Shown: piece by piece, positions 9,378-52,244 of the stretch | How positions within the stretch are numbered: position 1 is the first letter of the stretch | Layout: every line of letters starts with the position of its first letter | Virus record (IMG/VR): IMGVR_UViG_3300017917_005108 | Coordinates: 98,498-162,497 of that record | Reading direction: 5' to 3' (one strand) | Length of the DNA: 64,000 bases | Source of the DNA: a virus | Made by a program: the position numbers and the translations under genes | The notes under the pieces: model-generated | The model's database searches: none | What the model saw: the letters and a program-made list of their open reading frames with translations, nothing else | What the model was told of the DNA's origin: nothing

Positions 9378-10034
9378 CTAAATTAGTTTCCGATTTTGAG
9401 CAAATTCAATAAACTTATAAAATTCATTTCTTGAATTATCTTTATCATCTAAAAATGCACCAGACATTCTAGCAGTACGCATTGTAGAATCGTGTCTAAT
9501 ACCACGATTCGAACAACAAGTATGAGCAGCTTCAATCATAACAGCAACACCCTTATTCTTTTCACATACCTCATCAATATACTTGTGAATTTGCATAGTA
9601 AGATTTTCTTGTACTTGAGGGCGTCTAGCAAACCAGTCTACAATACGATTCAACTTACTTAACCCAATAACTTTACCATCTTTAGAAGGAATGTAGGCAA
9701 CATGTGCAAATCCCATAAATGGTGCATGGTGATGTGAGCAGAGAGAAGTGACCTTAATATTAGTCTGTGCTACAATACCGTCATACTTATCAACATTATC
9801 AAAAGCTGTAACTTTAGGTGGTTCACTATAACATCCCCAGGCAAAATCTTCAACAAATGCTTTAGCTACTCTATGAGGTGTATTAGAGCTATTAGGGTCA
9901 TTTCTCCAATCGTAACCTAGAGCATCCATATAGGCTTCATAAGCCTTAGCGGCCTTTTCTACTATAAGTTTACGTTCTTCCTCAGTATGAGGGTGATTAT
10001 GATTTGCAAAAGCTAGTTTTTTCTTATTAAACAT
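9378..10034 (-). CDS. folE: GTP cyclohydrolase I (FolE)
   Basis: 218 residues. Family motifs: TPHRVAKAFVEDF, the zinc/catalytic SLCSHHHAPF, VIGLSKLNRIVDWFARRPQVQENL and EAAHTCCSNRG. It converts GTP to dihydroneopterin triphosphate, the first step toward preQ0 (and folate). With QueD, QueE and QueF in the same window the 7-deazaguanine route is the more likely use. Expression is from a sigma70-like -10 TATAAT (10043-10048) 8 nt before the ATG, not from a late promoter, as expected for a nucleotide-metabolism gene. Confidence 0.95.
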   Translation of the reverse strand: MFNKKKLAFANHNHPHTEEERKLIVEKAAKAYEAYMDALGYDWRNDPNSSNTPHRVAKAFVEDFAWGCYSEPPKVTAFDNVDKYDGIVAQTNIKVTSLCSHHHAPFMGFAHVAYIPSKDGKVIGLSKLNRIVDWFARRPQVQENLTMQIHKYIDEVCEKNKGVAVMIEAAHTCCSNRGIRHDSTMRTARMSGAFLDDKDNSRNEFYKFIEFAQNRKLI

Positions 10035-12035: not shown

Positions 12036-12722
12036 ATGAGTTATCAAAGTACAAAAGTTTTAGAATTAGGTAGCTGTGCGTTTAGACAATGGAGAGCTGA
12101 TCATAGTCATTGTCATTTTATTCATGGTTATAGATTAATTGCAAAGTTTTGGTTTGGTTGTTCTGAGCTTGACAATAAAAACTGGGTTGTAGATTTTGGC
12201 GGTCTTAAAGAATTAAAAAGGGAACTAGAAAAACAATTTGATCATACATTTTGTGTTGCTGCAGATGATCCTCTTCTAGAAAAATTTAAAGATCTACATA
12301 ATGCTGGTGCTTGTGATTTGCGTATTATGGAGAAAGGTGTTGGTATAGAAAGAACTGCAGAATGGTGCTTTAATAAAGCAAGTGAAGTTGTTTCTAGGCT
12401 AACAAATAATCGTTGTTGGGTAGAAAAAGTTGAAGTATGGGAGCATGAAAAAAACTCTGCAATTTATACATACACTCAGAAAAGTTCACCTTTTTGGAAT
12501 GATGTAGTAAATGTAAAGACAGAAACAACACCAGAAAGTAAGTTTAATGCAAAGCAATTTGAGTTTAATTTTAATCAACCGGTTGCAACTTCTGTAGCTG
12601 CACCTGCCCCAGAAGTTACAGAAGCAGTAAATAAAGCTGAACAGAAAATACCTGCTAGAGTTGGCGGCAATGTTACACCAGGTTTTAGTAATCTATTTGG
12701 TGGGACATCTTGGGGTAAATGA
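12036..12722 (+). CDS. queD: 6-carboxy-tetrahydropterin synthase (QueD)
   Basis: 228 residues. The QueD/PTPS core is seen: SHCHFIHGYR (two His zinc ligands), VVDFGGLK, FDHTFCVAADDP and the C-terminal EKVEVWEHEKNSA. QueD converts dihydroneopterin triphosphate to CPH4 for 7-deazaguanine synthesis. The catalytic Cys lies in GSCAFRQW. The C-terminal ~75 residues after SSPFWND are an Ala/Pro/Glu-rich extension absent from standard QueD (about 120 residues). A Shine-Dalgarno GGAGG sits ~16 nt upstream. Confidence 0.85.
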   Translation: MSYQSTKVLELGSCAFRQWRADHSHCHFIHGYRLIAKFWFGCSELDNKNWVVDFGGLKELKRELEKQFDHTFCVAADDPLLEKFKDLHNAGACDLRIMEKGVGIERTAEWCFNKASEVVSRLTNNRCWVEKVEVWEHEKNSAIYTYTQKSSPFWNDVVNVKTETTPESKFNAKQFEFNFNQPVATSVAAPAPEVTEAVNKAEQKIPARVGGNVTPGFSNLFGGTSWGK

Positions 12723-13663: not shown

Positions 13664-13867
13664 ATGAGTAAAAAAATTACAGTAGAACTAACTAATGAAG
13701 AGTTTAAAACACTACACTCTGTTTTAGGTGATTATAAGAGAATAACAAGAGACCAATATTATAGATTTGTAAAAACTAACTATGTTTATTCAGAATGTCC
13801 TCTTAATAAGATTCGTTTTGATGAAGCACAAAGTCTTTTAAAAAAACTAGTTGAAGATCAACAATAA
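13664..13867 (+). CDS. small hypothetical protein
   Basis: 67 residues, begins MSKKITVELTNEEFKTLHSVLG, a beta strand plus helix pattern. No domain recognised. First gene ahead of queE and the P-loop kinase; likely co-transcribed with them. Confidence 0.5.
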   Translation: MSKKITVELTNEEFKTLHSVLGDYKRITRDQYYRFVKTNYVYSECPLNKIRFDEAQSLLKKLVEDQQ

Positions 13868-13886
13868 TATAATATCATCTTTAAAA

Positions 13887-14621
13887 ATGGAAAATACATT
13901 ATTCTTAAGTGACGATAAAATCTTTCATACAATAGAAGGGGAGGGTGAGTATGTTGGAAAGCCTTCAGTTTTTATGCGTCTATCTATGTGTAATTTAACT
14001 TGTAAAGGGTTTATTAGTGCTGATGCTCCTTACGGCTGTGATAGTTTTATTAGCTGGTCAATTAAAAACAAAATGACGTTTGATGAGATTAATACTTTAC
14101 TTGATGAGTCGGGGTATGTAAGATGGCTAAATAGAGGCGATATTTTTAAAATTACCGGTGGTGAACCTCTTATACAGCAAAAAAATCTTCTACAATTCAT
14201 TGATTCATTTATATTTAAATTTAAATTTATTCCAAGAATTGATTTTGAAACTAATGCTACTATTATGCCAGATTATCAGTGGTCTGATTGGTGTGCAACG
14301 TTTACAACATCTCCAAAGCTATCTAATAACGGTGATCCTGAAGAGAAAAGATACAAACCAGAAGTTTTAGCTTGGCATGCCAAAAATGGCTCAGGATTTA
14401 AATTTGTTGTTTCATCAGAAAAAGATTTAGATGAAATATTTGAAAAATATATTAATAGGTTTAATATTAGAAAAAATAAAGTATGGCTAATGCCCTGCTG
14501 TGGCAGTAGAGAAGAACACAATAAAGTTGCTCCTGTTGTAGCAGAAATATGTAAGAATACAGGTATTAATTTTAGTCCAAGGCTACAACTGGTAATTTGG
14601 GACAAAGCGCTTAAAGTATAA
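13887..14621 (+). CDS. queE: 7-carboxy-7-deazaguanine synthase-like radical SAM enzyme (QueE)
   Basis: 244 residues from ATG 13887, chosen over the upstream TTG because family members begin just before the FHTIEGEGEYVGKPSVF signature. QueE rearranges CPH4 to 7-carboxy-7-deazaguanine. KITGGEPLIQ is the GGEP SAM-binding motif. The cluster ligands are unusual: C35-x3-C39-x11-C51 rather than CxxxCxxC, the third Cys being displaced by a GFISADAPYG insert. This recalls other QueE variants with widened spacing, so activity is plausible. Confidence 0.8.
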   Translation: MENTLFLSDDKIFHTIEGEGEYVGKPSVFMRLSMCNLTCKGFISADAPYGCDSFISWSIKNKMTFDEINTLLDESGYVRWLNRGDIFKITGGEPLIQQKNLLQFIDSFIFKFKFIPRIDFETNATIMPDYQWSDWCATFTTSPKLSNNGDPEEKRYKPEVLAWHAKNGSGFKFVVSSEKDLDEIFEKYINRFNIRKNKVWLMPCCGSREEHNKVAPVVAEICKNTGINFSPRLQLVIWDKALKV

Positions 14622-14622
14622 T

Positions 14623-15366
14623 ATGAGAATTGCCATATCTGGCACAGCTTGTCAAGGTAAGACAACATTAATAAATGATTTTTTAAAAACCTGGCCTTCT
14701 TATACACGTTCTAATGAAAGCTATAGAAAGGTTCTAAAGGAAGAGAAGCTAAAGATTAATAAAGAAGTAACAAAAGATGGGCAATGGAAAATACTAAACT
14801 GCCTGATTAATGATTTACAAAATACTACTAGAGAAGACAAAATTATATTTGATAGATGTCCTTTAGATAATCTAGTATACTCTATGTGGAGTTATGAAAG
14901 AGGTACATCAGACATAGACAAAGAGTTTTTAGATAAATGCATTCCTTTAGTTAGAGAGAGCATGAGAATGCTTGATATTATTTTCTTTTTACCCATAACA
15001 AAATTTTCACCTATTAAGATTGAAAAGAAAGAAAATAGAGAAATAGATCAAAATTATATTAAAGAAATTGACAATATTTTTAAGGCTATTGGACAACAAT
15101 ACAATATTAATGGTGGGTTTCCTTTTTTCGTACATGATGATAAACCAGCTTTAATTGAAATATTCGGCACTCCAGAAGAAAGAATTGAAATGGTTAAGCT
15201 TTATTTAGATAAAGATGGTGATGTTGTTAGTGAAAAAGAAAGTGTACTTAGTAATGAAAATCTTGAATTAATGGAAACTTTACTAGGTGTTCAAAAGCAA
15301 ATAGATAAGAAAGAAAAAGAAGATCAAAGACTTAGAAGTAAATTCATGCTTAAGAAGAATAAATAA
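14623..15366 (+). CDS. P-loop nucleoside/nucleotide kinase-like protein (AAA_28-type)
   Basis: 247 residues. Walker A GTACQGKTT (7-15), DRCPLDNLVYSMW (Asp-Arg substrate-binding segment), MLDIIFFLPI strand and a lid-like FSPIKIEKKENREID. It resembles the deoxynucleoside-monophosphate kinase-like AAA_28 family and a second protein in this window (36945-37535). The C-terminal ~45 residues are a charged coiled coil. It follows queE by one base, suggesting a role in modified-base or nucleotide metabolism. Confidence 0.6.
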   Translation: MRIAISGTACQGKTTLINDFLKTWPSYTRSNESYRKVLKEEKLKINKEVTKDGQWKILNCLINDLQNTTREDKIIFDRCPLDNLVYSMWSYERGTSDIDKEFLDKCIPLVRESMRMLDIIFFLPITKFSPIKIEKKENREIDQNYIKEIDNIFKAIGQQYNINGGFPFFVHDDKPALIEIFGTPEERIEMVKLYLDKDGDVVSEKESVLSNENLELMETLLGVQKQIDKKEKEDQRLRSKFMLKKNK

Positions 15367-36049: not shown

Positions 36050-36964
36050 TTATTGCCGGACTGTCTTGGTAAAATACTTTGTCTCATCAATAAGAGCTTT
36101 ATCTAATAAACTATAGTTACTAGCTCTTGTTGGGTTAATATCAATTCCACCACGTCTCACATACAAGCAACTAACAACTAGCTCCTCTGGATTAAATAAC
36201 CTAAACAAACGCATATAAATTGTTTCACAAATTTCTTCATGAAAGTGACATTCATCTCTAAATGAGACAATATACTGTAATAAAGAAGTAGGATTAATAG
36301 CATACTTACCTTTATAGTGAATATAAACATCACCCCAATCAGGCTGACTTGTTACTCTGCAATTTGACTTTAACAATGCAGAATGAAATCTCTGAACTGT
36401 AGAAACAGTGCTCTCTATGCCTAAAAGAATACCAGGCGTTTCGGTATAATGATTTGCTTTAATCATAGTAACATCAATACCATTCTCTAATGTAGGATAG
36501 TCCTTATTACTGAATACCGGGGGATAATATAGACTATCACTAATATCTTTTGTCAAACTAACACAAACTTTTACATCTGTTTCAAGCAATTGGGATAAGT
36601 CTTTAGCAATTGTATTCTGTAGCTCACCCAGAACAGTGGAAATAGAGCCCTTAAACTTTTGCATATTAAAGGAGTTCATATACAGTTTAATAGACTTTGA
36701 TTCTACAATATATTTGTTTTTACAAGGATAAACAATCTTAGCAATTGCAGCAATAGGCATACCTTCAGCTGTTAAGCAAGAGACCTCATATGCATTCCAG
36801 ATATCAAATCCTGAAAACGGTGCATTATCATCATTAATATCTAAATGCTTTCTATTATTAATTCTAGGCTCTCTAACTAAAAGAGATGGATCATAAGTGG
36901 ACTTATAGCCAGTTACTTTACCTAAATGCTTTGAAATGTTACTATTATCTAATACTTTGTTCAT
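36050..36964 (-). CDS. queF: preQ0 reductase QueF (bimodular)
   Basis: 304 residues from ATG 36964 (an upstream TTG is in frame). YIVESKSIKLYMNSFNMQKF is the QueF signature, LLKSNCRVTSQPDWGD holds the catalytic Cys, and SFRDECHFHEEICE the NADPH/substrate Glu-His. Length and two-part layout match the E. coli-type bimodular enzyme. Reduces preQ0 to preQ1 with NADPH. Last gene of the minus-strand modification operon. Confidence 0.9.
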   Translation of the reverse strand: MNKVLDNSNISKHLGKVTGYKSTYDPSLLVREPRINNRKHLDINDDNAPFSGFDIWNAYEVSCLTAEGMPIAAIAKIVYPCKNKYIVESKSIKLYMNSFNMQKFKGSISTVLGELQNTIAKDLSQLLETDVKVCVSLTKDISDSLYYPPVFSNKDYPTLENGIDVTMIKANHYTETPGILLGIESTVSTVQRFHSALLKSNCRVTSQPDWGDVYIHYKGKYAINPTSLLQYIVSFRDECHFHEEICETIYMRLFRLFNPEELVVSCLYVRRGGIDINPTRASNYSLLDKALIDETKYFTKTVRQ

Positions 36965-37535
36965 GTAGTTTAATTTTAATCTGTTCCAAGCGTTCTTCAA
37001 CTGTTCCTTTTAAAATAATTACTCTATCTTTCCATGGAGATTGATTTAGATAATGACTCTCATACATCTCAATAATACTATTTCTAAATTCTTCATCTAT
37101 ACTCCTCTCACCATCATCTACTAAAGTTATTTCATGAGGATCCGGATAAAAAATAATATTATACATAGAATGAAACCTATACCAGTAATGTACTGCTTGC
37201 TGCCATACATGTTGAGTAACTAGTTTTTTATTATAAAAATATTCAGTAAAAACTAGCCCGTCTAATAAGCACCTATCATGTACTATACCCCTACAATTAG
37301 GCCACAATAATTCTTTTTTATATTTAAATAAATTCTCTAGTTCCTTGTTTATAATTAAAAGCTGTGTAACATCAGTTGCACCCTCTTCATTTATACTTAC
37401 GTTAAACTCTCTTTTAACTAACCTAGTAACCTCATCTATATACCAGAATTTATCAATTATACCCTTCTCCTTTTTCATCCTTTTTAGCAATGTCGTTTTA
37501 CCCGAACACTGCGGACCTGTAAACGTAATATTCAC
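36945..37535 (-). CDS. P-loop nucleotide kinase-like protein (AAA_28-type)
   Basis: 196 residues from GTG 37535 (a TTG at 37586 is in frame but would overlap the upstream gene). NITFTGPQCSGKTTLL is Walker A, VHDRCLLDGLVFTEYF the DR substrate motif and MYNIIFYPDP the following strand. Related in pattern to 14623-15366. Within the 7-deazaguanine operon it may act on a modified nucleotide or be a general nucleotide kinase. Confidence 0.6.
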   Translation of the reverse strand: MNITFTGPQCSGKTTLLKRMKKEKGIIDKFWYIDEVTRLVKREFNVSINEEGATDVTQLLIINKELENLFKYKKELLWPNCRGIVHDRCLLDGLVFTEYFYNKKLVTQHVWQQAVHYWYRFHSMYNIIFYPDPHEITLVDDGERSIDEEFRNSIIEMYESHYLNQSPWKDRVIILKGTVEERLEQIKIKLHEQSIR

Positions 37536-37557
37536 TATCTTAGTATAACTGACTTTA

Positions 37558-37905
37558 TTACTTACACCACTTTTTTCTTTTAACAATTTCAGCTATAATA
37601 CAGTAAACTGCAGTATCTCCAAAGGCATCAAAAACAGGCTCATTTGCAGTTTCAAAAGTTTTCTTACGCAAAACCAAATTAATAAGCCTCTGAATTTTAT
37701 CGTTCAACCTAACTACTATAGCAGAAATAGAAGCAACAATATCTTCTTTTTTATGTAGATCTGATCCAAGACTGATATTATGAGGACCGTAATCAAATTG
37801 CTTTTTACAGAACAATTCATACTGCTCATTTTGAATTTTCTTAAATTCAGCACAAGTCTCAGGATACGTAGATTCTACAATTTTAATAAATTCTTCTGGA
37901 TTCAC
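37558..37905 (-). CDS. DUF1599 / nucleotide-modification-associated domain protein
   Basis: 115 residues, GTG start overlapping the upstream stop. FCKKQFDYGPHNISLGSDL and VVRLNDKIQRLINLV fit the DUF1599 family, predicted by comparative genomics to be tied to phage nucleotide modification; the pattern recalls MazG-like all-alpha NTP hydrolases. Possible role in clearing or preparing nucleotides. Confidence 0.65.
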   Translation of the reverse strand: MNPEEFIKIVESTYPETCAEFKKIQNEQYELFCKKQFDYGPHNISLGSDLHKKEDIVASISAIVVRLNDKIQRLINLVLRKKTFETANEPVFDAFGDTAVYCIIAEIVKRKKWCK

Positions 37906-38873
37906 AATCTAACCCCGTAGTTCACGTTACTTAAATTAAGCGCCTTCAAATTGCAACCACCTGCATAACTAATTGCACTCTGCAAGTCTTGAGTAATTTC
38001 TAATAATTTTTCTTCATACGTAAATGAATCTGTATCCATAAGCTTCATTGTACCCTCAATATTCTTTTTATCAATCTTGTTGTGTATACTAGCAGAGCCA
38101 TAATACTGCTTGTATCTTCTACCAGAAGAATCTTTTACTACTGGTGCAGGACTATCTGAACATGCAGCAAATATAGAACCACACATTACCATTTTAGCAC
38201 CTGCAACTAATGCCTTTGCGATATCACCATTACTGCGAACTCCACCATCTGCAATAATTGGTATACTATTACAAGACTCTTCTTTGCCCGCACATTCTAC
38301 AACACAACTGAACATTGGATAAGTAAATCCTGTCTTATCTTTTGTTGTACAAGCATAGCCTCCTCCAATACCCACTTTTACAGCATCAGCTCCTGCAAGT
38401 GCTAAATACTCTACACCATTTCTTGTTGCAATGTTGCCTGCTATAACTTTAGTTTTTGGCAGTGTATCTTTTATAAATTTTACTTGATCAGCAACTTTAG
38501 AATGGTGACCATGAGCAACATCAATAGTAATAAAATCTACTCTTAAATTATGATTTGCAATATTCGTTACTAAAGCCTTATCTTTCTCTTGAATACCTAT
38601 GCTAATGGAAACATTATTAAAAAATGCCTCGTTAGCATCCCTTACAAAGCCTAAGATATCATGATCAAAACGGTGCATAATATAAAAATAATACTTTGAA
38701 TCCAAAAGACGACAAATATCAAAATCAACACAGCATTTCATGTTTGCTGGTATAACAGGAAGGTGAAAATTTTTACCTAAAAAATTTACATCTGTGTCTA
38801 TTTGAGCTCTAGACTTTACAGAATTATAATTGGGCTTGAGAAATACATTCTCATAATGCAGTGAAATATCCAT
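37902..38873 (-). CDS. guaC: GMP reductase (IMPDH/GMPR family)
   Basis: 323 residues. DFITIDVAHGHH, KVIAGNIATRNGVEYLALAGADAVKVGIGGG, the catalytic-loop Cys in GGYACTTKDKTGF, PIIADGGVRSNGDIAKAL and the flap RRYKQYYGSAS are diagnostic. No CBS domains, as in GuaC rather than IMPDH. Converts GMP to IMP with NADPH. Its presence between DpdA and QueF could help deplete or rebalance guanine nucleotides. Confidence 0.85.
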   Translation of the reverse strand: MDISLHYENVFLKPNYNSVKSRAQIDTDVNFLGKNFHLPVIPANMKCCVDFDICRLLDSKYYFYIMHRFDHDILGFVRDANEAFFNNVSISIGIQEKDKALVTNIANHNLRVDFITIDVAHGHHSKVADQVKFIKDTLPKTKVIAGNIATRNGVEYLALAGADAVKVGIGGGYACTTKDKTGFTYPMFSCVVECAGKEESCNSIPIIADGGVRSNGDIAKALVAGAKMVMCGSIFAACSDSPAPVVKDSSGRRYKQYYGSASIHNKIDKKNIEGTMKLMDTDSFTYEEKLLEITQDLQSAISYAGGCNLKALNLSNVNYGVRL

Positions 38874-38874
38874 G

Positions 38875-39444
38875 TTAACGACCTAATATATTATATGCAG
38901 TAAAAAAACTTTTCCAGAGATCAAAAGCGACGTTATGCAGACTGTCGTACACTTCTGTTAATGTTTTATTCTCTATAGCTACTCCCTGGCTCAATATAAT
39001 TTCACCGGCATCAACTTCAGGTACAACCTTGTGTATAACACAACCTGCTAGCTTATATCCCTCTCTAAATGCTCTTTCCTGCGGATTAAAGCCCTTCAAT
39101 GAAGGATATTTGTCAATTAAACCTGGATGTAAATTATAAATTTCATATTTTTCACAAATTTCTTTTGGAATAATACGAAGATATCCGTGTAATGTTATAA
39201 CGGGATTTTTAAATTGCTCTAAAACCTTTAAATAATCTATTGCAGTTGGCTTAGCGGGTAATGCGTGCCAAATAACACTATTTAATTTATGTGCACGAAA
39301 AGTATTTACAGATAACAAATCTTTATTTACACCGTCTAAACTTTGTCTATTTGTAACAACAGCATCAGGATATACTTCTAATGCCTTGCAGAGATTGTTA
39401 ATTTCTGTACCTGTTTGAGAGAAAAATGTTACCCAAGGTCTCAT
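38875..39444 (-). CDS. dpdN: PurN-like formyltransferase, candidate dPreQ1 formyltransferase (DpdN)
   Basis: 189 residues. VITLHGYLRIIP, IYNLHPGLIDKYPSLKGFNP and IHKVVPEVDAGEII hold the His and Asp of glycinamide-ribotide-type formyltransferases using 10-formyl-THF. Overlaps the DpdA-like gene by 4 bp and lies upstream of QueF. A phage formyltransferase predicted to make 7-(formylamino)methyl-7-deazaguanine in DNA has been named DpdN; context suggests this is one. A plain PurN for purine synthesis is the alternative, but no other purine pathway genes are present. Confidence 0.6.
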   Translation of the reverse strand: MRPWVTFFSQTGTEINNLCKALEVYPDAVVTNRQSLDGVNKDLLSVNTFRAHKLNSVIWHALPAKPTAIDYLKVLEQFKNPVITLHGYLRIIPKEICEKYEIYNLHPGLIDKYPSLKGFNPQERAFREGYKLAGCVIHKVVPEVDAGEIILSQGVAIENKTLTEVYDSLHNVAFDLWKSFFTAYNILGR

Positions 39445-40253
39445 CTACGAATAATCTTCTTAAACATTGTAGTATTATATTTTACAAGTTCAAGCTGATC
39501 TTCTGTGAAGCTATGTGCAATTAAATCTGCTAATTTGGTTGATGGTTTCATATCTAGGCCATAATCCGCATCATATTTTAATCCATGAATAGCGGCAACA
39601 ATTGGATTACTAGTATCGCAAGACACAATATTGTGAATGTTTCTATCGACATAAAACCTAAATTCTTTAGCTAATGAACAGCCAAGTAAATGATGAGGCT
39701 TGTCCCACCTCCATATACCATTATTTATTAAATCAGAAATAAACCTCTGTCTTCCAGAACACCAGCGCTCTAGATGATGCCATCCTTGCCCGGTAGCTTG
39801 ATAATAACTAAAATCAAAACTAATAGCTATCATGTCAGCGTTATCAGCCATAAACTTATAACATTCTCTCAATTCTTGCCAGTTTTTACCTTGAATGGCA
39901 CCTATTGCTTTTGTTTGAAAATTAGTTTTTATTTCGATCTTTTTATGCTCAAAATCTTTAAAGCTTTGAACTGTCCCATGCATATCCTCTAACACGTCAG
40001 GTACAATAAACATATTTGGCTGTAGTTCTAATGTTGCTTTATAAAAGTTTTCTGAATCAAAAGCCTTCCCTAATTCAAAAATAGAGTTGTCTAATAATAC
40101 TTCTCTATCATATGTAGATCTTGCAGCTTTATAAAACGCTTTATATTCAGGATATTGATCTAATAGATGCACAAGACAATAGTCAAAATCATTATAACTC
40201 TTTGATAAATCAAGTATTGATATAGGAGATTCATGAGAGACTTTCATTAGCAT
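39441..40253 (-). CDS. dpdA: DpdA-like DNA guanine transglycosylase
   Basis: 270 residues. LLDNSIFELGKAF, MFIVPDVLEDMHGTV, KAIGAIQGKNWQELRECY, PHHLLGCSL and IVSCDTSNP follow the TIM-barrel order of tRNA-guanine transglycosylase relatives in phages (DpdA): two candidate catalytic Asp and the aromatic/Gly-rich substrate loop. Much shorter than bacterial TGT (about 375), as phage DpdA is. Would exchange guanine in DNA for preQ0/preQ1. First gene of the operon; starts 6 nt after a TATACT -10-like box. Confidence 0.65.
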   Translation of the reverse strand: MLMKVSHESPISILDLSKSYNDFDYCLVHLLDQYPEYKAFYKAARSTYDREVLLDNSIFELGKAFDSENFYKATLELQPNMFIVPDVLEDMHGTVQSFKDFEHKKIEIKTNFQTKAIGAIQGKNWQELRECYKFMADNADMIAISFDFSYYQATGQGWHHLERWCSGRQRFISDLINNGIWRWDKPHHLLGCSLAKEFRFYVDRNIHNIVSCDTSNPIVAAIHGLKYDADYGLDMKPSTKLADLIAHSFTEDQLELVKYNTTMFKKIIRR

Positions 40254-43228: not shown

Positions 43229-43236
43229 TATTTATT
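43229..43236 (-). promoter_or_regulatory. late promoter AATAAATA (minus)
   Basis: Six nt before ATG 43222; overlaps the end of the upstream gene. Confidence 0.65.
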
Positions 43237-43651
43237 CTGGCCAAATATATTCCAAATTAGTTGGAACTTCTGGCCAAAGCTTACTGTAAAAATCTGGTAG
43301 TTTTTGTATTAATTTGCTTTTGTGAGAAAGGTGTAGATCTTCTCTGCCAAGCCATATAGGCATTTGGCATGATTCTTCTTTTTTGTAATGTACTTTAATT
43401 TTCTCAAGACATGTATCCTTATATCCTCTATTTTTCCATGCAGTACAAATTTGTACACCGTATTCTACTAATGCATTAGGTGTATTAGTCCACATTTTTG
43501 TACACGGATGATTAGTCCATCCTCTTCCTTTAGTTATACCTCTAATTTTATTAAGCATCTGTAATACCTCAACACGCTGTTTACCAAGACGCTTTACATC
43601 TAAAGCTTCACCGCTTTTATAAAACTCTTTATAAGGTAAAAAAGTATTCAC
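43232..43651 (-). CDS. Pyr_excise/MSMEG_6728-family protein (DNA glycosylase-related)
   Basis: 139 residues, GTG start. NTFLPYKEFYKSGEALDVKR, LGKQRVEVLQ, WTNHPCTKMW and AWKNRGY match the PF03013-type family related to the pyrimidine-dimer glycosylase fold. Activity in this subfamily is unproven. Overlaps the upstream nuclease gene (GTGA), so the two may act together on DNA. Confidence 0.7.
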   Translation of the reverse strand: MNTFLPYKEFYKSGEALDVKRLGKQRVEVLQMLNKIRGITKGRGWTNHPCTKMWTNTPNALVEYGVQICTAWKNRGYKDTCLEKIKVHYKKEESCQMPIWLGREDLHLSHKSKLIQKLPDFYSKLWPEVPTNLEYIWPE

Positions 43652-49874: not shown

Positions 49875-50052
49875 TAAAGTTCAAGAAATTTTGGAAACTT
49901 CAATTTCACCATTTGTAAGTAGATCTCAGCCTGTAGACGCACAGTCAGGAACTAATATAGGCATAACATCTGGGGATATTTTAAATACATTTCCTTCATC
50001 TATTAAAAAAATTAATTTTAAGCGAAAAATTAAACAGAAGAAAAAAGCTTAA
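49855..50052 (+). CDS. small basic protein with capsid-targeting-like N-terminus
   Basis: 65 residues from TTG 49855, overlapping the fibre gene by 20 bp. Begins MNLKFYNKVQEILE; compare the lysozyme at 50030-50599 which begins MNFYRKLKEILE. A middle Ser/Thr region and a very basic tail (INFKRKIKQKKKA) resemble T4 internal proteins. Convergent with the lysozyme, overlapping by 23 bp. Confidence 0.5.
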   Translation: MNLKFYNKVQEILETSISPFVSRSQPVDAQSGTNIGITSGDILNTFPSSIKKINFKRKIKQKKKA

Positions 50053-50599
50053 CTATACTGTTTACTCTTTTTCCTACTTGAGTAGACCACTTACTTTTTT
50101 GTATTTCGTTTGCAGCATTACCATATTCACCCTTTAAAATATAATCTTTAGTTTTAACAAATTTATTTAGTCTTGTAAATCCCATATTAAAAGACATATC
50201 TAAAACACCTAATTTTATGTTTTTGGGTAATGAATCAAAATTTGGTATCCATTTTTTAGCATCATTATATGCAATAGTAAGAGTTATTTTAAAAATTTCT
50301 TTTATTTGTTCATCTGTAAGAGCAGATTTTCCAGATAATATATCTTCATAGTTAACTCCAACTTTTTTAGCTATTAATCTAGCATCAGGTCTAGTTAAAT
50401 TAAAGCCAATACCAATTGTAGGTATACCTAAGGAATCTTTATATACATTAGGTCTATAACCTTCATGATCCTTTATAAAATCAAGAATATCATCAAATGA
50501 TAATCTAGAATCTTCAGCTTTTTGAATAATAGCAGGTGGAGGAGGTGGAACATCAGAAATAGCTTCTAAAATTTCTTTAAGCTTTCTATAGAAGTTCAC
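50030..50599 (-). CDS. GH24 T4-type lysozyme with capsid-targeting-like N-terminal leader
   Basis: 189 residues, GTG start. The catalytic triad is E46, D55 and T61 in DHEGYRPNVYKDSLGIPTIG, same spacing as T4 lysozyme (E11, D20, T26). Cleaves the MurNAc-GlcNAc bond. The first 12 residues MNFYRKLKEILE then a Pro-rich linker are absent from T4 lysozyme and resemble gp21-cleaved leaders here, so it may be virion-packaged rather than a simple endolysin. Confidence 0.8.
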   Translation of the reverse strand: MNFYRKLKEILEAISDVPPPPPAIIQKAEDSRLSFDDILDFIKDHEGYRPNVYKDSLGIPTIGIGFNLTRPDARLIAKKVGVNYEDILSGKSALTDEQIKEIFKITLTIAYNDAKKWIPNFDSLPKNIKLGVLDMSFNMGFTRLNKFVKTKDYILKGEYGNAANEIQKSKWSTQVGKRVNSIVKLFSSV

Positions 50600-50604
50600 G
50601 TAAT

Positions 50605-50612
50605 TATTTAGT
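50605..50612 (-). promoter_or_regulatory. late promoter ACTAAATA (minus)
   Basis: Five nt before GTG 50599. Confidence 0.55.
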
Positions 50613-51165
50613 TAATAACTGCTACCTTTACTATCTTAGGATAGCGGTTAGCAAACAACATAGCGTCTTTCTTATGTTCAAAAAAGACATCTATTACAGG
50701 CAACTTACCACTAGAGGCACGCTTTTCTCTAACTGCCGTTCCTGTATCAACAGCTTTAACTAACCCAATATTAGGAATAATAACCTCTTTGGTATATGGA
50801 ATAATTCTTGGATCAACTGCAATAGATTCACCCTGTTTAAGAGTATAACCTGTAGAGCTTTTCTTTTTAGCACTATCTCTATCAGTATCGCCACCCTTAG
50901 CCCAGTATACTGTTAATCTAACTGTCATAACTTTAAACCCATTTGTCTTGGGAATAAATTCATCTTTATATTTTATACCATCATTCTTAACAACAATCTG
51001 TTTTGCAATAGCTCTTTCTTCTTGAATTGGTAAGTTTTTAAGCTCATTTTTTACATCTTTAATACTTAGTTTTTTTCTATATGTGTCTATACCTACACTT
51101 GTAATGGATGCAAAAAGCACTACAACAAGTAGGAATAGCTTAGTTATTTTGGTGTTTATTTTCAT
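50608..51165 (-). CDS. 3D-domain (MltA/RpfB-like) cell-wall protein with N-terminal membrane anchor
   Basis: 185 residues. Basic start then hydrophobic ITKLFLLVVVLFASITSVGI (signal anchor). The C-terminal ~90 residues carry the three-Asp barrel: SIAVDPRIIPY, LVKAVDTGTAV and LPVIDVFFEHKKDA. Such domains act in lytic transglycosylases and stationary-phase wall enzymes. Part of the lysis region. Confidence 0.75.
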   Translation of the reverse strand: MKINTKITKLFLLVVVLFASITSVGIDTYRKKLSIKDVKNELKNLPIQEERAIAKQIVVKNDGIKYKDEFIPKTNGFKVMTVRLTVYWAKGGDTDRDSAKKKSSTGYTLKQGESIAVDPRIIPYTKEVIIPNIGLVKAVDTGTAVREKRASSGKLPVIDVFFEHKKDAMLFANRYPKIVKVAVIN

Positions 51166-51176
51166 AAAAAAAGAAT

Positions 51177-51188
51177 GCTGTATACAGC
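51177..51188. repeat. 12-bp palindrome GCTGTATACAGC in leader
   Basis: Lies in the leader between the late promoter at 51234 and ATG 51165; could fold into a hairpin. Confidence 0.35.
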
Positions 51189-51233
51189 TTATTGCCTAGA
51201 ATGGCAGAAAATAATATGTAATATTACTGTCAT

Positions 51234-51241
51234 TATTTATT
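51234..51241 (-). promoter_or_regulatory. late promoter AATAAATA (minus) with long leader
   Basis: 68 nt before ATG 51165. The leader holds an out-of-place ATG (51233) opening a 14-codon frame and a palindrome, an exception to the short-leader rule. Confidence 0.5.
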
Positions 51242-51279
51242 CTATTTTAAAGGAACAAACAATACAGTCAAGTAAAAAA

Positions 51280-51777
51280 TTATGCCAAATCTCTAATGTA
51301 TTTACGTAAATTGTTGTTTCTGTTAGTCCAACCCTTTAAAAACACCTTTAACTTAGGTCTAGATTCAGTAAGATTTTCATAAAAGGTCTGGCGCTGATCA
51401 ATAATTTTTATTGCTAATTCTTTAGGATCAGCTTTTTCTGCAGCCTTTAAAGTAACAGGACCAACTACACCGTCTGCTACAACACCTAAAGCTCTTTGTA
51501 AAAACTTATTGGCCTGCTTTCTTCCTGTATTGACAACAGAATCAAAATACGAAATATATGAGGGGTGAGATAACTTATCAGCTGAGCTCATAGACCAGTA
51601 ATCTTTAAAAAATATCTCATCTGCTTTTTCTCTCGTTAAATTTTTAATATCAAGATCTGGATAATCCCTCTTAGTAAGACCATACATTGTTTCACCACCG
51701 GGATCGTTAGGATGATTATAGTAACCGCCTTCTGCTTCACGAACAAACTTCATGGCTTTTTCAAATCTATCATTCAT
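51280..51777 (-). CDS. GH108 endolysin with C-terminal peptidoglycan-binding domain
   Basis: 165 residues from ATG 51777, chosen because a late-type AATAAGTA ends 5 nt upstream and family members start here. MKFVREAEGGYYNHPNDPGG holds the catalytic Glu (EGGY), YGLTKRDYP follows, and LQRALGVVADGVVGPVT is the binding domain 3-type segment. A muramidase. Confidence 0.88.
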   Translation of the reverse strand: MNDRFEKAMKFVREAEGGYYNHPNDPGGETMYGLTKRDYPDLDIKNLTREKADEIFFKDYWSMSSADKLSHPSYISYFDSVVNTGRKQANKFLQRALGVVADGVVGPVTLKAAEKADPKELAIKIIDQRQTFYENLTESRPKLKVFLKGWTNRNNNLRKYIRDLA

Positions 51778-51782
51778 AAAAA

Positions 51783-51790
51783 TACTTATT
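51783..51790 (-). promoter_or_regulatory. late promoter variant AATAAGTA (minus)
   Basis: Five nt before ATG 51777; one mismatch to the consensus. Confidence 0.45.
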
Positions 51791-52244
51791 CCCAAGGAAA
51801 ATTTACCCACAAATCATTTGAAAGCTCTTGCACATATATATCAGGAATAAAAGCAGTACCGTGTTTTATATACAATGTGCCTGTCTTAACTTTAGCAGCA
51901 TTAAGATTATAATCAAAAAATTTAGCAGCATATTGCAATGTTTTGCCTGTATCTGAAAGATCGTCAAAAATTAAAATATTACTTTTTGAAAAATTATTAC
52001 AAAGATATTCTAGATCAGGTTTATTAAGAAATTTTATTTCTTCTTGTTTATTGTTATCATTATAGCTCTTTAAATGCAAAGGATACACATTAGGTATTTT
52101 TGCTTTATATGAAATAGCAGTACCAGGTACAAGCCCACCCCTTGCTATAGGTACAATTAAGTCAAACGATTCATTTTTAATTTTATTTAAAAATAACGTA
52201 ATATTAAAATTTATAATATCCCAGTTTACATTAAAGAATTCCAT
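51786..52244 (-). CDS. phosphoribosyltransferase-like protein
   Basis: 152 residues. IVPIARGGLVPGTAIS and the PRPP loop ILIFDDLSDTGKTLQYA are type I PRTase motifs. May salvage purines (compare Gpt/Hpt) or modify nucleotides. Promoter is sigma70-like, so early or middle expression. Confidence 0.75.
   Translation of the reverse strand: MEFFNVNWDIINFNITLFLNKIKNESFDLIVPIARGGLVPGTAISYKAKIPNVYPLHLKSYNDNNKQEEIKFLNKPDLEYLCNNFSKSNILIFDDLSDTGKTLQYAAKFFDYNLNAAKVKTGTLYIKHGTAFIPDIYVQELSNDLWVNFPWE

Follow-up and report, generated by a model that had tools for sequence, protein, structure and literature searches.

The operon and its genes

The DNA analyzed here (the window) forms the final 64 kb of the 162,497-base virus record IMGVR_UViG_3300017917_005108, with a G+C content of 31%; coordinates are those of the window unless prefixed (Table 1). 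Six minus-strand open reading frames (ORFs), running from 40253 to 36050, putatively encode, in order, a DpdA-like DNA guanine transglycosylase, a formyltransferase, a GMP reductase, a small DUF1599-like protein, a P-loop kinase, and QueF, which reduces preQ0 to the 7-deazaguanine base preQ1. The successive junctions measure -4, +1, -4, -29, and -56 bases; the last two rest on TTG starts, and the true overlaps are probably shorter. The arrangement is kept in about 100 related viral loci, and is therefore no chance event. An original prediction, made from the sequence alone, had seen in this region one tight operon specifying a formylated preQ1 in DNA; the junctions and the conservation both uphold the operon. 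The observation is confirmed, and the conserved locus, in a virus of bacteria, is well explained as a DNA modification pathway of the DpdA3/DpdN type, a kind already known. What is new here is what is attached to it: purine-salvage genes, kinase genes, and a swappable acyltransferase.

Table 1. Putative genes of the pathway and associated genes, with the matches that identify them (E-values follow the profile or structure).
Feature	Position	Strand	Evidence
DpdA (DpdA3-like DNA guanine transglycosylase, 270 aa)	39441..40253	-	homologues, model fold, conserved Asp
DpdN-like formyltransferase (189 aa)	38875..39444	-	PF00551 3.1e-18; N-H-D kept
GMP reductase (323 aa)	37902..38873	-	PF00478 1.6e-55; 1ypf 2.9e-72; NF003966 1.8e-96
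Small DUF1599/Nmad1-like protein (115 aa)	37558..37905	-	phrog_1485 7.6e-13; conserved DYG...DK.QRL motif
Deoxynucleoside/nucleotide-type kinase	36945..37586 (start uncertain, probably downstream of TTG)	-	PF13521 (AAA_28/"thymidylate kinase") 3.9e-15; phrog_2107 3.2e-28
QueF, preQ0 reductase (makes preQ1)	36050..37000	-	PF14819 4.9e-35; PF14489 1.4e-22; TIGR03138 1.1e-78
FolE, GTP cyclohydrolase I	9378..10034	-	PF01227 9e-49; 55% identical to immuto FolE
QueD	12036..12722	+	PF01242 4.9e-18; 43% identical to immuto QueD
QueE, radical SAM 7-carboxy-7-deazaguanine synthase	13851..14621	+	phrog_2076 "QueE-like" 5.3e-44; TIGR03963 2.6e-17
Second kinase, same family, directly after QueE	14623..15366	+	PF13521 4.4e-12; phrog_2107 1.3e-18
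Purine (xanthine-guanine-type) phosphoribosyltransferase	51786..52244	-	PF00156 1.1e-14; GpT-1 4trb 6e-17; xanthine-guanine phosphoribosyltransferase 1a98 1.7e-10
QueC	G000:C1:87014-87763 (outside the window)	-	1.7e-57; above TIGR00364 cut-off

The first gene of the operon is, on homology and predicted fold, dpdA. Its product is 43% identical to the DpdA of Flavobacterium phage immuto and 46% identical to gp056 of phage CP220, and its named relatives belong to the Firehammervirus Campylobacter phages and to immuto. A model built from a 40-sequence alignment (predicted local distance difference test, pLDDT, 93.7) has the (beta/alpha) barrel typical of tRNA-guanine transglycosylases (TGTs), and its top 50 matches in the PDB are all TGTs (best 2pot, 8.6e-10). 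D55, D86, and D213 are invariant in the alignment and, together with a QG motif, appear in the same succession as the active-site motifs of TGTs; the residue-level assignment is tentative, with an hhalign probability of only 10.6% against E. coli Tgt. The original prediction of a DpdA-like transglycosylase is thus borne out, but not by the profile searches it had proposed as the deciding test: the protein matches none of the Pfam (including PF01702), PADLOC DpdA, or NCBIfam profiles. This miss does not discriminate, because the same PADLOC profiles gave just 0.02 for the DpdA of phage 9g and nothing for that of Dp-1. The PADLOC and Pfam profiles, being blind to phage DpdA, were dropped as a membership test, and fold comparison was used instead; fold and homology place the protein inside the TGT/DpdA family. 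The idea that the net charge of DpdA3 might argue against DNA binding was dropped as uninformative, the 9g DpdA being equally acidic (-8).

Next to DpdA, as had been claimed, is a formyltransferase with the catalytic N-H-D residues (YNxHPG and VDxG motifs). In PurN, a GNGSN loop holds the phosphate of glycinamide ribonucleotide. An alignment that includes the E. coli, P-SSM2, and Acinetobacter PurN proteins shows SQTGTE at this position of the window protein, and the loop (GxGSN) is found in none of 151 full-length relatives. The NCBIfam PurN equivalog scores 59 bits against a cut-off of 150, and the gene is single-copy in each of the tested records that carry it. Judged by the substrate loop, the evidence supports the view that this is not a working PurN; it is probably of the DpdN type, with 7-(formylamino)methyl-7-deazaguanine as its predicted product.

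The preQ1 supply can be traced gene by gene. QueF has both of its domains, and in alignment with 3bp1 (1.9e-50) the SNC, QPDWG, and FHE motifs match and the active-site Cys and Asp are kept, in agreement with the earlier claim that its presence indicates preQ1 rather than preQ0. Family profile matches likewise confirm FolE, QueD, and QueE at 9.4-14.6 kb, and the recommended search for queC in the rest of the genome found it, on the minus strand. With FolE, QueD, QueE, QueC, and QueF all present, the route from GTP to preQ1 is complete in one genome.

Three further genes complete the operon. The kinase, correctly recognized as such in the original prediction, has a deoxynucleoside kinase-like fold: its model (pLDDT 89.4) is closest in the PDB to the NadR kinase domain, deoxycytidine kinase, deoxyadenosine kinase, and the Drosophila deoxynucleoside kinase. 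The GMP reductase conserves its catalytic Cys175 motif (CTT) and its ADGG motif across 43 sequences, and scores 323.3 bits with NF003966, just below the cut-off of 344. The DUF1599 label of the small protein fares less well. The window protein itself does not match PF07659, while 11 of 17 aligned members of its family do so weakly (E up to 1, best 0.0016), and the label is weak. A PDB profile search with the protein returned nothing. Kinship with the dGTP diphosphohydrolase family was considered and rejected, hhalign giving a probability of 1.4%. A nucleotide-processing role is possible.

Conservation among related loci

Scanning with the DpdA of the window gave 37 related loci, and a second, alignment-based scan gave 80 hits that were kept, many of them on shared contigs. 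Loci spanning DpdA to QueF were counted as complete (n=92); some of the contigs are close relatives, and the counts are not independent. All 92 have the kinase, with the formyltransferase lying between it and DpdA in 76; a DUF1599-like gene is present in 66, and a GMP reductase inside the operon in 31. The kinase is the sole extra gene common to all complete loci. Every locus of the immuto lineage that extends to QueF has it as well, and so does CP220, next to DpdA and without a formyltransferase. This universality goes beyond the original prediction, as do the purine phosphoribosyltransferase and the second kinase beside QueE.

The immuto lineage contributes 69 complete loci, with, in addition to DpdA, the kinase, and QueF, a PRA-PH-type hydrolase (67), a formyltransferase (65), FolE (61), and a phosphoribosyltransferase (61), the last adjoining folE/dpdA. 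The phosphoribosyltransferase is present as well in 14 of 17 records from relatives of the window phage. On one contig, binned as Rhodobacteraceae (L125), the genes for QueE, phosphoribosyltransferase, QueD, FolE, DpdA, formyltransferase, kinase, and QueF are near-consecutive, with a QueC-like gene just after; a 2-oxoglutarate-Fe(II) oxygenase-like gene (L125:1608-2186) also lies inside this compact cluster.

GMP reductase has a narrower distribution. It had been singled out, beside DpdA and QueF, as not a described part of the pathway, and it does recur in the operon: 14 of the 17 records of the window's lineage encode it somewhere, and the other three are fragments of 37-59 kb. It was not found in the complete immuto and CP220 genomes, however, and is a recurrent accessory in the window's phage lineage only, not a core step. 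A GMP reductase match near DpdA in a Clostridia metagenome-assembled genome (L129) was not used; it is weak (32 bits) and cut by the end of the locus.

Sixteen of the 92 complete loci, mostly from one subclade, have DpdA, the kinase, and QueF only. No formyltransferase was found in the 8 contigs of this kind that were tested (up to 81.5 kb), and from their gene content these phages should have unformylated dPreQ1 in their DNA. In the immuto lineage, the operon of all four complete loci without the formyltransferase includes a GNAT acyltransferase. In two of them it takes the formyltransferase's place: a HAD-GNAT protein with an FkbH-like layout lies between DpdA and the kinase at L181:6918-8444 (L179 has the same protein). 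The other two each encode a kinase-GNAT fusion (L198:7816-8772 and L199:6123-7079), and in L126, also without a formyltransferase, a GNAT gene lies between kinase and QueF. In L104, a formyltransferase-less record of the window's own lineage, the GNAT gene is outside the operon. A search of 11 phage records that do have the formyltransferase turned up no GNAT domain. QueF makes a primary amine, and primary amines are what GNATs acylate, which supports an N-acylation of preQ1 as the replaced step. From gene content, the swap also favors the reading of the window enzyme as an N-formylase of preQ1, and the relatives concerned would be expected to have N-acyl-preQ1 in their DNA, with the reservation that the loci are few and come from related lineages. 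Related phages with a formyltransferase, without one, or with a GNAT instead amount to a natural experiment, making both the formylation step and the predicted N-acyl-preQ1 base directly testable.

Other genes have entered the operon in various relatives. A glyoxalase-family gene accompanies the HAD-GNAT protein, likewise in the formyltransferase's place, in L181, L179, and L174. Between DpdA and formyltransferase, two loci have a tryptophan-halogenase family protein (PF04820, 2e-75 and 5e-79; L014:10810-12393 and L016:4008-5585), joined in L016 by an asparagine-synthase-like gene; the halogenase-family inserts possibly provide further decoration of the base. A SPASM radical-SAM enzyme lies between kinase and QueF in two others (L018:13446-14765 and L066:10566-11891). 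A gene of the dATP/dGTP diphosphohydrolase family (PF18909, 8.7e-21 in L038) takes the position of the DUF1599-like gene at L038:5222-5593 and also in L039, L040, L041, L114, L120, and L121. An ornithine-cyclodeaminase/mu-crystallin-like gene (PF02423, 2.2e-67 in L107) and a HIT-family gene are found in the DpdA operon at L107:9906-10826 and L118:9395-10321. In the window itself, a putative pyrimidine dimer DNA glycosylase (PF03013, 3.6e-20; 43232-43651) lies near the operon, between a tail gene and NrdB, and a cluster of three cell-wall genes (phage lysozyme, 3D domain, GH108) occupies 50030-51810.

A proposed pathway

The gene families, the fold, the catalytic residues, the conservation of the operon, and the completeness of the gene set are what the sequences and models show. 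What they probably amount to, on the gene content, is a phage that makes its own preQ1, formylates it, and inserts it by means of DpdA3, giving DNA with the predicted base 7-(formylamino)methyl-7-deazaguanine, and that recycles the guanine released. FolE, QueD, QueE, and QueC would convert GTP to preQ0, and QueF preQ0 to preQ1. The PurN-derived formyltransferase would then move a formyl group from formyl-tetrahydrofolate to the aminomethyl nitrogen, and DpdA3 would swap guanine for the 7-deazaguanine base in phage DNA, with formylation either before or after insertion. Insertion into DNA has been argued in the literature (PMC12783734). Replacement at most or all G positions is probable, as reported for relatives with the DpdA3 type, and the modified base would hide phage DNA from host nucleases. 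We infer from the genes what the product is, how far replacement goes, in which order the last two reactions occur, and every recycling step described next.

Each exchange would free one guanine. The phosphoribosyltransferase and, in the window's lineage, GMP reductase suggest that it is recovered: the former could convert guanine to GMP, which could re-enter the pathway as GTP or be turned by GMP reductase into IMP for adenine nucleotides, in a genome with 69% A+T. The kinase and the small DUF1599-like protein might handle deoxynucleotides coupled to the exchange. The salvage genes and the invariant kinase thus bear on how a phage swaps very many guanines and on the fate of the guanine set free.

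Several points weigh against this scheme. Guanine recycling leaves the kinase unexplained, and the formyltransferase could act on another amine. Base exchange, to judge from immuto and CP220, does not require GMP reductase. Several loci have its gene upstream of the operon, frequently right behind ribonucleotide reductase genes, a setting that fits general purine metabolism too.

Alternative explanations

One alternative, which we think unlikely though it deserves to be taken seriously, is exchange at the nucleotide level. DpdA3 would swap the base of free dGMP for preQ1, the kinase would phosphorylate the product for incorporation by the polymerase, and pyrophosphohydrolases would turn the rival dGTP into dGMP. 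Here the invariable company of DpdA3 and a kinase of deoxynucleoside kinase fold has an explanation; the annotations of the 9g and Dp-1 deazaguanine clusters, with a DpdA of another type, list no kinase. Candidate hydrolases do lie beside DpdA, of PRA-PH/MazG type in immuto, dGTP_diPhyd (PF18909) in the L038 group, and with an HD domain in CP220, and the two kinase-GNAT fusions suggest one shared substrate. A modified-dGTP route was also once proposed for Campylobacter phages (noted by Hutinet 2019, PMC6884629). The known DpdA enzymes act on DNA, however; a pyrophosphohydrolase is missing from the operon of the subclade without a formyltransferase, and a hydrolase role for the DUF1599-like protein is putative. 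Furthermore, work by Crippen in 2019 reportedly detected no dADG phosphates in infected cells, and Cui in 2023 is said to have argued for post-replicative insertion in all cases.

An extension of this idea, a shade more doubtful still, would make DpdA3, the universal kinase, and a pyrophosphohydrolase a factory for acylated 7-deaza-dGTP at the dNTP level, with an interchangeable acyl group: formyl here, and one transferred by a GNAT (e.g., giving N-acetyl-preQ1) in relatives.

As a further possibility, these could be plain purine genes. The formyltransferase would then be a PurN-type enzyme boosting purine synthesis as in cyanophages, GMP reductase and the phosphoribosyltransferase would do likewise, and the DNA would contain dPreQ1 only. 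The PHROG that the formyltransferase matches is the cyanophage PurN family, annotated cyanophage PurN genes are among the phage matches ranking after immuto, and GMP reductases are present in many other phages, in which the same search found no DpdA relative. Against this, the GNGSN loop is lost in all relatives though the catalytic residues stay, the equivalog score is far under its cut-off, the formyltransferase is strictly placed after dpdA, and it is replaced by GNAT in the immuto lineage; we regard the explanation as improbable.

Still more remote is a deoxyinosine (dI) route, in which GMP reductase would convert dGMP to dIMP, dI would be incorporated, and DpdA would exchange hypoxanthine instead of guanine: kinase and nucleotide genes are adjacent and Fletchervirus Campylobacter phages have dI in place of dG, but the retained ADGG motif, which binds ribose hydroxyls in the GMP reductase family, makes the ribonucleotide GMP the likely substrate, and immuto and CP220 are without the enzyme.

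Comparison with known systems

The preferred scheme, formylation of preQ1 and its insertion by DpdA3, has several partial counterparts. Phages 9g and Dp-1 also have Que genes and DpdA in one cluster; unlike in the window phage, no kinase or formyltransferase is annotated there, and no phosphoribosyltransferase was found in the genome. The DNA of Dp-1 carries dPreQ1, replacing only a small part of G (PMC6884629).

Phage CP220 (Firehammervirus Campylobacter phages) resembles the window phage in its DpdA, which is followed by a homologous kinase, but has no formyltransferase or GMP reductase, and no QueF is annotated in the stretch examined. CP220 is presumably a member of the Campylobacter phage group with dADG. 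DNA of that group is reported to be highly modified with this base (PMC6884629).

Flavobacterium phage immuto (NC_055915) shares the order DpdA, formyltransferase, kinase, QueF, with FolE, QueD, QueE, and the phosphoribosyltransferase just upstream. It differs in having no GMP reductase anywhere and no DUF1599-like gene that could be found in the operon, and in the PRA-PH-type hydrolase that precedes DpdA.

The closest likeness is to the DpdA3/DpdN phage pathway, for which Cui et al. in 2023 reportedly predicted 7-(formylamino)methyl-7-deazaguanine in DNA, with QueF as a component. The DpdA3-type transglycosylase, QueF, the DpdN-type formyltransferase, and the predicted base are the same here. 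To these the window phage, from another phage lineage, adds a GMP reductase, a DUF1599-like gene, a purine phosphoribosyltransferase, and two kinases, and the pathway predicted here to yield a formylated 7-deazaguanine extends, through its relatives, to a large group of environmental phages.

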